64,000 nucleotides of DNA from Cytophagaceae bacterium (GTDB taxonomy: Bacteria > Bacteroidota > Bacteroidia > Cytophagales > Flexibacteraceae), in contig JAIXYP010000013.1 of assembly GCA_027490155.1 (NCBI GenBank), positions 1 to 64,000 on the forward strand, in the 5' to 3' direction. This document shows positions 1 through 9,747 of this stretch, piece after piece. Under the pieces are notes generated by a model. The model was not told the origin of the DNA. It saw only the letters and a list, made by a program, of their open reading frames with translations, and did no database searches. How positions within the stretch are numbered: the first letter of the stretch is position 1; every line of letters starts with the position of its first letter. A program made the position numbers and the translations under genes.

Positions 1-342
1 AACAACGACACCACCTTAGTTTATCGGTACGATGGCTACACGCCATCTACATACCTATGGCCAGCTTTTGTAGCCTCGCCACTGCCTGTGGTGTCTGTAA
101 ATCCATCACCAAGCAATAGTGATCATGACACCCATATTCCTGCTAAGATTGAGTACTTCTATGTCGATTGTTTTAGCACACGCACAGGGCCATTCTTTAA
201 GTATATGGAGGAGGTCAACACCTTCACTAATACAAATTCAAGTGGCTGTTTGAATGGATATACACGAACAGTAACCATAAACCCTAATGCCTGTGTCATA
301 TTTAGCGAAAACTCAACCAGTGTCTATGAGTTTGGCTATTAG
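1..342 (+). CDS. 3' end of an unrecognised protein, cut by the left window edge
   Basis: Frame 1 is open from the first base to the TAG at 340-342, so this is the C-terminal ~113 residues of a gene starting outside the window. The first in-window initiation codon (GTG at 88) is internal to this open stretch. The tail contains TNSSGC and ends in EFGY. I do not recognise the family. It is more AT-rich than the rest of the window. The fragment at 396-665 has the same TNSSGC block and the same GY ending at similar spacing, so the two are probably tandem paralogues. Possible role: a surface or secreted protein, but nothing here proves that. Confidence 0.6.
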   Translation, partial: NNDTTLVYRYDGYTPSTYLWPAFVASPLPVVSVNPSPSNSDHDTHIPAKIEYFYVDCFSTRTGPFFKYMEEVNTFTNTNSSGCLNGYTRTVTINPNACVIFSENSTSVYEFGY

Positions 343-346
343 TCGC

Positions 347-394
347 CATACCTGTCCTAAATGGATTCACATGAATCCATTTAGGACAGGTATG
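347..394. repeat. Perfect 23-bp inverted repeat with a 2-base spacer
   Basis: Arms 347-369 and 372-394 are exactly complementary, separated only by CA at 370-371. The element starts four bases after the stop codon of the preceding partial gene, so it could form a terminator-like hairpin, but no T-run follows. The arms are much longer than those of the ordinary terminators in this window (8-15 bp). Alternatives are a small foldback mobile element, a recombination scar, or an assembly artefact. Confidence 0.85.
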
Positions 395-395
395 A

Positions 396-665
396 TTCAA
401 TACTAACTTCAGCATTGACTTCTATATCTACCCGACCGATGATGCCAATAATCAACTGAAGTTTATTCCTAACACGATTTCCTTTTTCCGATATGGTAAT
501 TGCGGAACCACTGTGGGATTTTATCTAGAATTAAAAAACTATACTGACATCGATGGTACCAATAGCTCTGGCTGCATCACCCGCATGAAGGGCCGAAATG
601 AATACTATGACTGCTCCGGAACAATGATTTATAGATCGTCTGGCGATATTACGTTAGGGTATTAG
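396..665 (+). pseudogene. Start-less paralogous gene fragment
   Basis: The frame ending at TAG 663-665 is open from 396 to the stop (89 codons) and reads as protein-like sequence, but it has no initiation codon near its beginning. A TGA at 393-395, within or next to the right arm of the inverted repeat, closes the frame. It includes TNSSGC and ends LGY, matching the end of the upstream gene (TNSSGC, ending FGY), with cysteines and aromatics similarly spaced between. I read it as the 3' remnant of a tandem duplicate whose 5' part was lost. An internal ATG at about 588 would give only ~25 residues. Function unknown. Confidence 0.55.
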
Positions 666-672
666 GTCCTGA

Positions 673-2217
673 CTAATACCCCTTCAGCACCTGCCTCATA
701 AAGGACATCATCTTGCCCCTGACACCTGGCAGGATGTGGTGTCCGTCTTTATAGACTAGCACCTCTTTTTGTTGTGCCATGGTGTTGTACCAAGCAAAAG
801 CACCGTCTGGTGGGCAAGTCATATCCTGTAGCCCAACGGCCATAAATATCTTGGCCTTGCAGCCGATGGCTAGGTTGGCTGGGTCAAAATAGCTGAGGGT
901 GTTCAGGACCTTTTCCATCTTACGGTTAGCTGGGTCCTCGTTCACCCATGCCTGGAAGTCACGTTTGGGCCATGGAGCAGTGACAAAATAGCGGCTCCAG
1001 TTGCACATAAAGGGCACAGAGACAGCCATTGCCTTAATGCTGCTATCGAGGCATGCAGTCATCGAGGCAAGCCCTCCACCTTGGCTGACACCCATCACCC
1101 CAATGCGCTTTGCATCAATCTGCTGCAGGGATTTCAGGAAACGGACCGCAGCAAGGCAATCTTGCACCACCCCACGATAAATATAGTCCTCTTCATTTGG
1201 CAGGCCATAAGTCATGAAACCGGGAAAGCCCGGGTTGATGGGTTTGCGGCTGCGTCCATGTCCTCGGACATCGAGGCGGAGGACTGCCATATCTCGGGTC
1301 TCAAGGTCCGGCCGCATGGAGTTGCCATAAGGCGGCAGCTCTAGAATTACAGGATGGGCACCACTAGCTTTGGGCATCGTGAGCCAACCATGGAGCATAA
1401 CACCATCTGTGCTCGGTATAGAAACGGAGAAAACCTGCATACTTGGCCAACGGTGACGAGGGCCAGGTTTCATCTTGACCTCAGTGCTGACGACATCAAG
1501 GTCCAGCTTGGCCAAAAGCCAAAACTGTTTGATGTCAGCTGGTGGGGTAAAGGCGGGGAAAAACCATTGAGGTTGGTATCCTGCCTTCTTGAGCTGGTAG
1601 GCTAATAATTTGCCTTTGTGATAGAGCTCGGACTGGAGCCAAAAAAATCCAGGCTCACGTGGCTTAAACCGGAACTTAACCTCATCACCTACTTCTACGA
1701 TGGCTGATGTGTCCCAATGCACTCTGCTGGACATACTGTCAGACCGTACCGAAAGCCGAACCCTAACGCTATCATACCCAGGGTGTCGATCAAATTGGGG
1801 GATCAGATTCACGACCATGGCCGAGTCCCAAAAGATGCCATCCTCAGACTCGATATCAAGCTGAATATCTACTTTGCCGCGTTTGGGTTTAGGAGGCTCA
1901 GCCTTGGCAATAGCTTCGAGGTTGGCTTCGGGTTTATCTTCTAGCTTTTCGCTGGCATTCCGGACGTTACCTGATCGATTGCGACCTCGGCTCGATCGAC
2001 TGTTGCGTTTAGCACTACGTTTTTTGCGCTTACGTTGTGCAGCCAAGTTAGAGGTCGGGACCAAGGCTGTACCTGTTACGATACTGGCCAAGTCCAATTG
2101 CTCAAGGGGTATTTTCGCCTCTAATTTGTAGCCAAAAACATCAGCAACTAAAGTGGCTAGCAGCAATATGGTGGCAAACGTAATCCTAAAATACTGGCTG
2201 ATGGTGCTACTGGGCAT
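673..2217 (-). CDS. Acetylxylan esterase / AXE1-type alpha/beta hydrolase, exported
   Basis: This 514-residue predicted hydrolase probably deacetylates xylan-type or other acetylated sugars outside the cytoplasm. The serine nucleophile is in GVSQGG (about residue 378), followed by Asp in GLQD (about 465) and His in DGHH (about 493). RLDVRGHGRS precedes the nucleophile. This order fits the AXE1/cephalosporin-C deacetylase family. The N-terminus has a hydrophobic export segment (TFATILLLATLVADVF). An Arg/Lys/Ser-rich stretch of about 30 residues and then a beta-rich region separate it from the catalytic domain. I chose the ATG at 2217. A TTG at 2253 in the same frame would add 12 residues ahead of the signal. 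The protein is longer than typical AXE1 enzymes (~320) because of the N-terminal region. Confidence 0.75.
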   Translation of the reverse strand: MPSSTISQYFRITFATILLLATLVADVFGYKLEAKIPLEQLDLASIVTGTALVPTSNLAAQRKRKKRSAKRNSRSSRGRNRSGNVRNASEKLEDKPEANLEAIAKAEPPKPKRGKVDIQLDIESEDGIFWDSAMVVNLIPQFDRHPGYDSVRVRLSVRSDSMSSRVHWDTSAIVEVGDEVKFRFKPREPGFFWLQSELYHKGKLLAYQLKKAGYQPQWFFPAFTPPADIKQFWLLAKLDLDVVSTEVKMKPGPRHRWPSMQVFSVSIPSTDGVMLHGWLTMPKASGAHPVILELPPYGNSMRPDLETRDMAVLRLDVRGHGRSRKPINPGFPGFMTYGLPNEEDYIYRGVVQDCLAAVRFLKSLQQIDAKRIGVMGVSQGGGLASMTACLDSSIKAMAVSVPFMCNWSRYFVTAPWPKRDFQAWVNEDPANRKMEKVLNTLSYFDPANLAIGCKAKIFMAVGLQDMTCPPDGAFAWYNTMAQQKEVLVYKDGHHILPGVRGKMMSFMRQVLKGY

Positions 2218-2296
2218 AGATACAAAATAGGGGCCTAGGTACTGGTTTTGCAAACCATGACCCCAATAATGGTCAATTCGTCTTGCTGGGATATAC

Positions 2297-2956
2297 TTAA
2301 CGGTTATTCATCTCGATCGATGGGTGAATCTGAGTGCCCGATTTGCCATGGGCAAGGCTTCGCTCCATCATCTGGACCATGTAGGATGCCACTTTTTCGG
2401 CCTTAATGGGTCGGTATTGCCTCAACGGACCAAGCGTGAGGAAACTCAAGGCCCCCATAATGGTCTCGCCAAGGCGGGGGTTTGCACGCTGCCCCAGCAA
2501 CAACGAAGGCTGGTAGATATGGAAAGAAGGCACTTTGAGGGCTTCAATGTCGCGTTCAATCTCGCCTTTGGTCCTCGAATAAAAGATGCTGCTATCTGGA
2601 TTAGCCCCCAAAGCAGAAACTAAATGGATGGCATTAACCCCAGCCTCAGCTGCTTTGGTGGCGAAGTATAGTGGCAGGTCATAGTCCACCCATCGGAATG
2701 CTTGTTGGCTTCCTGCGTCCTTAATGGTGGTACCTAAGCAGATAAATAGCTGAAAGGGCGTTTCAGGAAATGTAATATCAGGAAGGCTATCTAGTGGATG
2801 TTTTTGCTCTATCAGCTTTTCTAGGTTGGTCAGACCTTCGCGCTGGATAGGACGGCGGGCCACTACGGTCACCTTCAACACTGCTGGGTGTGCCAAAAGC
2901 AAGTGTAGTAAATGAGACCCTACCAAGCCAGTGGCACCTACTAACAATACGTTCAT
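2297..2956 (-). CDS. NAD(P)-binding Rossmann-fold oxidoreductase (HTATIP2/TIP30-like)
   Basis: The 219-residue protein begins with a Rossmann dinucleotide-binding motif, GATGLVGSHLL, at residues 7-17. It has a conserved middle section (FICLGTTIKDAGSQ) and a YSRTKGEIE element that resembles the YxxxK catalytic pair of extended short-chain dehydrogenases. This pattern matches the atypical SDR family containing human HTATIP2 and many bacterial proteins annotated NAD-dependent epimerase or semialdehyde-dehydrogenase NAD-binding. Substrate unknown. It ends 43 bases upstream of... no partner operon is obvious: the esterase follows on the same strand 80 bases downstream and may be co-transcribed. 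Confidence 0.7.
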   Translation of the reverse strand: MNVLLVGATGLVGSHLLHLLLAHPAVLKVTVVARRPIQREGLTNLEKLIEQKHPLDSLPDITFPETPFQLFICLGTTIKDAGSQQAFRWVDYDLPLYFATKAAEAGVNAIHLVSALGANPDSSIFYSRTKGEIERDIEALKVPSFHIYQPSLLLGQRANPRLGETIMGALSFLTLGPLRQYRPIKAEKVASYMVQMMERSLAHGKSGTQIHPSIEMNNR

Positions 2957-3034
2957 AATGTTCGGGAGATATATCTGAGAAAATGATGCTGATGCATCTG
3001 CAACGAGGGTGGCAAAGGCAGCGTCTTGTATTTT

Positions 3035-3976
3035 TTACTTACCAGCCTTTTCGTATGCCCCAATGATATCACGTACCAGACGGTGGCGAACCACATCGGC
3101 AGCATCTAGCTTAACAACCCCAATGCCTTTAACCTCCTTCAGGATTTCGAGCGCCTCAACTAGGCCACTGTGCTGGTGCCTTGGCAGGTCAATCTGGCTC
3201 GTATCACCTGTGATGATAGCCTTGCTGTCATTCCCCATGCGGGTCAGGAACATTTTAATCTGGCTAGGGGTAGTGTTTTGTGCCTCGTCAAGCAAAATGA
3301 AGGCTGACTGCAAGGTCCGGCCACGCATATAGGCCAATGGCGCAATCTCGATGATGCGGTTCTCCTGATAAAACTTGAGCTTTTCGGGCGGTACCATGTC
3401 ATCCAGCGCATCATAGATTGGCCTGAGGTAGGGATCTACTTTTTCCTTTAGGTCACCTGGCAAAAAACCAAGACTTTCTCCCGCCTCCACTGCAGGACGG
3501 GTGATGATGATTTTTTTGACTTCCTTGTTTTTAAGGGCTCGGACGGCAAGCGCAACAGATATGTAAGTCTTTCCGGTACCTGCTGGGCCAAGGGCAATCA
3601 CCAAATCATGGGCTTTTGCGGCATTGACCAGGCGTTGCTGGTTGGCCGTTTTAGCCTTGACGACGACCCCACGTGTGCCAAACAAGATAACGTCTTCGCG
3701 CTCATGGCGTTCATGTCGTTCCTCGTCTTGGTTGAGGTAACTGGCTACATTTTCTTCGGTTAGGCGGCCAAATTGCTGAAAGTGCTCTATCAGGGCATGA
3801 AACAGTTGGTTGACCTTTACAATTTCCTCTGGCTGGCCCTTGATCCGGATTTCGTCACCTCGGGAGACGATACGGCTTTGTGGGAATGCTGCAGCTATTG
3901 CGTTAATGTTACGATTTTCCACCCCTAGGAACTCTGCTAGGGGGATATTTTCTAGCGTTATGACTTTCTCTACCAA
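3035..3976 (-). CDS. phoH: PhoH family ATPase
   Basis: A 313-residue cytoplasmic PhoH-type P-loop ATPase, a family linked to RNA metabolism and ribosome maturation (YbeZ). Walker A is GPAGTGKT (about residue 131) and Walker B is FILLDEAQN (about 226-234). An N-terminal KH-like region precedes the ATPase domain, as usual for the ~320-residue PhoH class. The start is TTG: translating from it gives MVEKVITLENI, the usual N-terminus of Bacteroidota PhoH proteins, and no ATG or GTG lies between it and the upstream in-frame stop at 4028-4030. The gene stands alone, 79 bases upstream of the Rossmann oxidoreductase on the same strand. Confidence 0.93.
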   Translation of the reverse strand: MVEKVITLENIPLAEFLGVENRNINAIAAAFPQSRIVSRGDEIRIKGQPEEIVKVNQLFHALIEHFQQFGRLTEENVASYLNQDEERHERHEREDVILFGTRGVVVKAKTANQQRLVNAAKAHDLVIALGPAGTGKTYISVALAVRALKNKEVKKIIITRPAVEAGESLGFLPGDLKEKVDPYLRPIYDALDDMVPPEKLKFYQENRIIEIAPLAYMRGRTLQSAFILLDEAQNTTPSQIKMFLTRMGNDSKAIITGDTSQIDLPRHQHSGLVEALEILKEVKGIGVVKLDAADVVRHRLVRDIIGAYEKAGK

Positions 3977-4295
3977 GTGCTGATGACCAAATATGGTGTT
4001 GATGGTTGTGTGATAGTGGTATGGCAGCTACATAGTCCAAGGTAGGGAAGCCCAAAATCAAATACGAGGCTAACAAGGACCCTATGTACTTGCCGGGCCA
4101 AAAGGTAGGAATAATTGGCGATGGATATTTTAGCGCACCAAAAAAATAACACTGCAATCAGCATCTTGGTTCCTGAAGGATCCTAGCACTTACATTTTTG
4201 CCAGTAAAGACCCAGTGTAATGCCAAAAATCGTACTTTGGAGCACCTTACAGGATTTTCCTTTTCGGGATTCATCAACCTTACTTTTTAACTGAC
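3977..4295. other. Non-coding gap between divergent phoH and the VOC gene
   Basis: About 320 bases separate phoH (minus) and the VOC gene (plus). Two overlapping short minus-strand open frames of 64 and 82 codons exist here, but they overlap each other in different frames, the larger runs into phoH, and neither resembles a known protein, so I do not call them. The gap must hold promoters for both flanking genes, but I found no clean TTG/TAnnTTTG pair. Confidence 0.5.
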
Positions 4296-9713: not shown

Positions 9714-9747
9714 AAAAAAAACCTACTAGTTTAAACTAGTAGGTTTT
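9714..9747 (-). terminator. Rho-independent terminator downstream of porV
   Basis: A perfect palindrome at 9718-9747 (arms ending in CTAGTTT / AAACTAG, 15 bases each) is followed, on the minus strand, by a T-run (A-run 9714-9721). It lies 43 bases beyond the porV stop codon and separates porV from the M16-like gene. Confidence 0.85.

Follow-up and report, generated by a model that had tools for sequence, protein, structure and literature searches.

Nearly precise excision of Tn10 removes the DNA between inverted repeats close to the two ends of the element and leaves behind a palindrome of about 50 bp. The process is mentioned in PMC5991714 as one that involves inverted repeats located internally. 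For the archaeon Haloquadratum walsbyi, PMC3119063 describes deletion-coupled insertions, in which unrelated sequences occupy the same place in two close genomes; 64 cases are given there, with breakpoints exact to the base and sizes from about 20 bp upwards, and a 52-bp version of an element consisting of its termini only is mentioned. Deletion-coupled insertion is the closest description of the exchange reported here, which likewise puts unrelated sequences at one place in close genomes with breakpoints fixed to the base, but which is a single case outside the archaea and has a perfect palindrome as its insert. The likeness to Tn10 excision lies in a palindrome of about such size, and the difference is that 726 bp of host DNA are missing as well.

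The window, i.e. the whole stretch of 64,000 nucleotides that was analysed, is the first part (1-64000) of the 89,269-bp contig C17 and so begins at a contig edge. Its genome (G000) has 3.99 Mb and is rated 100% complete and 0.21% contaminated. The comparator was one genome of the same genus (G001). By comparison with it, the gene order in the window's own genome would be gene 1 (on contig C41), gene 2 (divided between C41 and C17), a remnant of gene 3, and an esterase gene. Gene 1, a complete paralogue of 358 aa (C41:366093-367166), precedes the head of gene 2 near the right end of C41 (367,648 bp), where the first 144 codons of gene 2 form an open frame (C41:367215-367646). The 3' end of gene 2 (113 codons and the stop) lies at 1-342 on the forward strand of the window, cut by the contig edge, with 312 of 342 nt identical to the comparator orthologue. 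The remnant of gene 3, a more distant paralogue (395-665, forward strand), comprises the last 89 codons and the stop plus one base before them, and in both genomes the convergent AXE1/alpha-beta hydrolase (esterase) gene (673-2253, reverse strand; PF05448, E 2.7e-51) adjoins the array on the right. C41 ends at what corresponds to position 742 of the comparator contig and the window starts at position 951, leaving about 208 bp of gene 2 absent from the assembly; a search of the window's own genome with comparator positions 720-980 returned only the start of C17 and one chance-level match. The sequence-only reading had proposed extension to the left and a profile search as checks, with tandem copies upstream counting as support, and both turn out in its favour. 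The end of C41 holds another tandem copy together with the 5' part of the partial gene: the 113-aa tail of gene 2, searched in its own genome, found gene 1, 36% identical over the tail.

The comparator carries the array on a 3,998-bp contig (C316). The end part of a paralogue (C316:3-287) precedes an intact 327-aa orthologue of gene 2 (C316:309-1292), which begins like the end of C41 and ends like window 1-342. It is followed by an intact gene 3 of 320 aa with an ATG start and a lipobox (C316:1332-2294), located between gene 2 and an esterase gene (C316:2302-3882) on the strand opposite to the array genes, whose match at C316:2305-3879 is 95% identical to the esterase of the window. The left flank agrees as well, since the end of comparator contig C348 is 90.8% identical, over 2270 bp, to the part of C41 that immediately precedes the array; C348 stops inside the gene upstream of the array, and the comparator array is therefore not closed on the left.

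Window 1-347 matches comparator positions 951-1297 and window 395-2369 matches positions 2024-3998, both ungapped, and these flanking matches fix the breakpoints of an exchange in which 47 bp (348-394) stand in place of 726 bp (G001:C316:1298-2023). The missing DNA carried the spacer and, of gene 3, the start, the signal peptide and about 231 codons. It was not found elsewhere in the window's own assembly, where a search returned six matches 17-29 bp long (best E 0.057). Window 395-665 is thus read, with a probability of roughly 0.86, as the 3' end left over from a dead gene, the last in a tandem array of fast-diverging putative lipoproteins. This reading is supported by the intact comparator orthologue, with its start and lipobox, between the same neighbours and by the fixed breakpoints. 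The remnant would make no protein and most likely does nothing itself. The event appears to be a loss in the window's lineage, and not a gain of the gene front in the comparator, because the other members are full length, including those in the window's own genome.

The details of the fragment agree with its earlier description as a start-less frame closed by a TGA beside a perfect inverted repeat. There is no start codon near the 5' end of the 396-662 frame; a GTG at 513-515 (residue 40 of 89) is the earliest candidate in frame, two ATGs come later, at 26 and 13 codons ahead of the stop, and none of these is the start used by the intact comparator relative. The TGA (393-395, forward strand) is formed by the last two bases of the palindrome and the first base of conserved gene 3 DNA. 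The two tails do end alike, frame 1-342 with TNSSGC...FGY and frame 396-662 with TNSSGC...LGY, with a TAG after each, and their resemblance in protein exceeds chance. A local alignment between them scored 55, a value attained by one shuffle in 2000 (by three in 2000 when gap costs were softer), and BLASTP gave E = 6e-4. A profile built without gene 3 gave 40.6 bits for the comparator gene 3 and 13.9 bits for the fragment, the highest score of 1000 shuffled sequences being 8.8 bits. Between the two tails no significant similarity of DNA was found (best E 1.7), and the duplication is therefore old. The frames had also been called AT-rich; this bias is mild, with 36-50% GC per 100 bp over 1-700, followed by one block of 48% and one of 54%.

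The intact proteins of the family, 320-358 aa long, have a hydrophobic N-terminal stretch and a lipobox (LTSC, LASC, LIGC) followed by KVADS or RVADS; inspection by eye placed the lipobox cysteine in LTSC, LASC, LIGC and IVSC across four intact members and the head of gene 2. Taken together with weak YD repeats and fast divergence, this suggests that the intact members are probably outer-membrane lipoproteins, and perhaps surface adhesins or binding proteins diversifying by duplication and divergence. The signal for surface export of lipoproteins in Capnocytophaga canimorsus is given as C-X-K-(D/E)2-X (PMC5080379). The members read CKVADS or CRVADS, and that of a further genome (G029) CKKETP, none of which matches this signal; other species have other export signals, so that the members may still be surface-exposed. 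The family shares with RHS/YD-repeat proteins that gene 1 passes the Pfam cutoff of PF05593 (23.2 vs 22 bits) and that the comparator gene 3 passes the NCBIfam YD-repeat cutoff (TIGR01643; 20.9 vs 15.8) while remaining under the Pfam RHS/YD cutoff (17.5 vs 22). It differs in that its members are of 320-358 aa with one or two weak repeats, and the window fragment has no repeat; neither gene 2, nor the G029 protein, nor the fragments reached the cutoffs of the RHS/YD models.

The C-terminal block is 19-35% identical among different members and 90-92% identical between orthologues. Gene 1 and gene 2 are related over their length (E = 5e-50) and gene 2 is related to the comparator gene 3 over the N-terminal part (BLASTP E = 9e-11), and genes 1 and 3 by themselves are marginal (E = 0.005). 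In a tree of the C-terminal block gene 3 alone was firmly separated, the other placements being on long branches. Of the earlier suggestion of a small expanding family, the tandem paralogues stood, and "expanding" held in part only, the copies being old, fast-diverging duplicates. The member that precedes gene 2 differs by species (16 of 81 residues identical between gene 1 and the partial comparator paralogue), which shows turnover and not growth as such. An 8-row profile had a match at E <= 0.001 in 14 of 291 genomes, the window's own included; its rows came from that genome, the comparator and G029, which score by construction, and the other 11 genomes matched at 6.0e-10 or weaker. Gene 1 as a single query had a match in 3 of 59 genomes, and the family gene of G029 has no neighbouring copy within its 3.7-kb locus. 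A single-protein search of the genome_contigs collection gave 28 pattern matches, none of which was confirmed, and the family profile had three matches among solved structures, the best at E 0.15. A structure model of the window tail, made from two sequences, was not usable (mean pLDDT 34.4), and a literature search judged by titles found no work on this lipoprotein family.

Over 395-665 the remnant shares 259 of 271 nt with the end of the intact comparator gene. Counted by sites, the gene 3 tail differs at 12 of 270, compared with 30 of 342 for the gene 2 tail and about 13% for the esterase. Changed codons, synonymous to non-synonymous, numbered 3 to 8 in the gene 3 tail, 44 to 29 in gene 2 (both ends) and 168 to 26 in the esterase; third positions differed in 6 of 90 codons of the gene 3 tail, the esterase having 177 of 527 (p = 1.7e-8). 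Few as the changes are, the codon types of the gene 3 tail are distinct from those of the esterase (p = 3e-5), and this non-synonymous excess was counted for the remnant reading. Gene 2 provides a weak contrast, with p = 0.037 when sites are compared and p = 0.053, not significant at the 0.05 level, when codon types are, and all these comparisons were picked after the sequences had been seen. The remnant is too little diverged for a long-dead gene; this counts against the remnant reading, which requires a recent loss of function or a recent exchange between lineages. Within the dead gene tail a tract of 108 bp (window 479-586) is identical in both species despite the difference of about 13% in the esterase, possibly through recent exchange between lineages.

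The 47 replacing bases are nearly the whole of a 48-bp perfect palindrome (347-394), made of two 23-nt arms (347-369 and 372-394) that are 100% complementary and a 2-nt loop; the inverted repeat that had been noted beside the fragment is thus real. No other perfect hairpin is as long in the 496,648 bp of its genome that were scanned, about an eighth of the total; the next has an arm of 16 (loop up to 12). The second-longest kind of perfect hairpin in the window is a perfect 15-bp dyad without a loop at 9718-9747 (AAAACCTACTAGTTTAAACTAGTAGGTTTT). A 19-base arm at up to 2 mismatches had no further copy in the window's own genome or five relatives, and among 390 genomes of the order a 30-base core, with as many as 3 mismatches allowed, turned up in the window's own and in 0 of the 389 others. 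No exact match to a 20-base arm was present in the genome_contigs or viral_contigs collections, the palindrome had no match among plasmids, and its seven records among phages were at chance level (E about 5, 31-40% of the query covered). When up to 3 mismatches were allowed, an 18-base arm end occurred at seven places in the window's own genome, two of them the palindrome itself, vs four for a reversed control, and at two places vs four in the comparator. The palindrome is absent from the comparator locus, where the best match to an arm is 14 of 23.

The palindrome would be the trace of the deletion event, in the manner of a deletion-coupled insertion. The cause that we prefer, though only tentatively, is that it consists of the collapsed ends of a mobile element with inverted repeats, which took out flanking DNA. 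The alignment shows no target duplication, which speaks against this step. No related element with the same ends was found, the searches for a parent having covered the window's own genome, five relatives, the 389 order genomes, plasmids and the contig collections, and the mobile-element cause is for this reason placed about level with an origin in repair. We know of no element with ends like these arms. In the repair explanation, fold-back or templated synthesis sealed a double-strand break with the loss of 726 bp and with no mobile element taking part; this is an equally tentative proposal, favoured by a sequence that is unique in the genome, by arms that match nothing in the searched collections and by the alignment, in which no target duplication is visible at the junction. 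The lack of a template for the arm in the comparator locus speaks against it, the search of the window's own genome having covered words of at least 18-19 bases. It is also conceivable, if quite unlikely, that the palindrome marks an undescribed element or mechanism of this lineage which swaps host DNA for its own fused inverted ends and so switches off a member of the surface-lipoprotein array.

Another explanation, compatible with the remnant reading, could be that the hairpin has a function as RNA or DNA, such as that of a terminator or processing site of gene 2, and was selected after or together with the loss of gene 3. The fold is very stable (-40.6 kcal/mol for the RNA of 335-420, z -10.7), and it starts four bases past the gene 2 stop, between convergent genes. 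This role is nevertheless unlikely, as the hairpin is absent from the comparator locus, where gene 2 is intact. An intrinsic terminator is unsupported, since there is no T-run and a terminator scan of window 1-1000 gave 0. No Rfam family reached its gathering score; five sub-threshold matches to microRNA hairpins (best E 0.0014) were far under theirs, and a known RNA family was likewise set aside.

An assembly artefact, with gene 3 intact in the chromosome and a misjoin at a hairpin near the contig edge, was also considered. The palindrome does lie 347 bp from that edge and the adjoining piece of gene 2 is missing from the assembly, but such a misjoin must invent 47 bp found nowhere else in the assembly, and the missing part of gene 3 is in no other contig of a genome with the completeness and contamination given above, which makes the artefact very improbable. 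That 396-665 and the adjacent upstream frame of the same family form one intact gene by frameshift or readthrough was rejected, given that the comparator has two separate complete genes, each with its own start and stop, that the two genomes share the TAG at which gene 2 ends, and that in this assembly the coding DNA that belongs in front of the fragment is absent from the locus and turned up in no other place.

The proposal of tandem paralogues, one of them reduced to a start-less fragment, is thus supported by the comparison of the two loci, and what is new here is the intact sister copy, the extension of gene 2 over two contigs, the exact exchange of 726 bp for 47 bp and the uniqueness of the palindrome. 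Apart from the scar, the locus looks like ordinary gene turnover and decay. With the gene kept whole in a sister genome for comparison, it illustrates cleanly the loss of one member from an array of putative surface proteins in tandem, and the base-exact junction with a perfect palindrome makes the mechanism of the deletion testable in sister strains.

Several further features were observed around the array. A search for the esterase in eight relatives at E <= 1e-30 found it in 1 of the 8, the comparator, and its protein carries a strongly basic stretch (RKRKKRSAKRNSRSSRGRNRSG, encoded at about 1960-2040) between the N-terminal hydrophobic part and the hydrolase domain. The product of the gene upstream of the array (L041:14343-15112 on C41 of the window's own genome; L075 on C348 of the comparator) is 100% identical over 256 residues, compared with 90.8% for the 2270 bp of DNA that contain the gene, which suggests strong purifying selection adjoining the fast-diverging array. 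Elsewhere in the window's own genome, open frames of 3812, 3275 and 4669 aa in L005 (C36), L006 (C31) and L007/L008 (C47), lying under chance-level matches, perhaps encode giant surface proteins.
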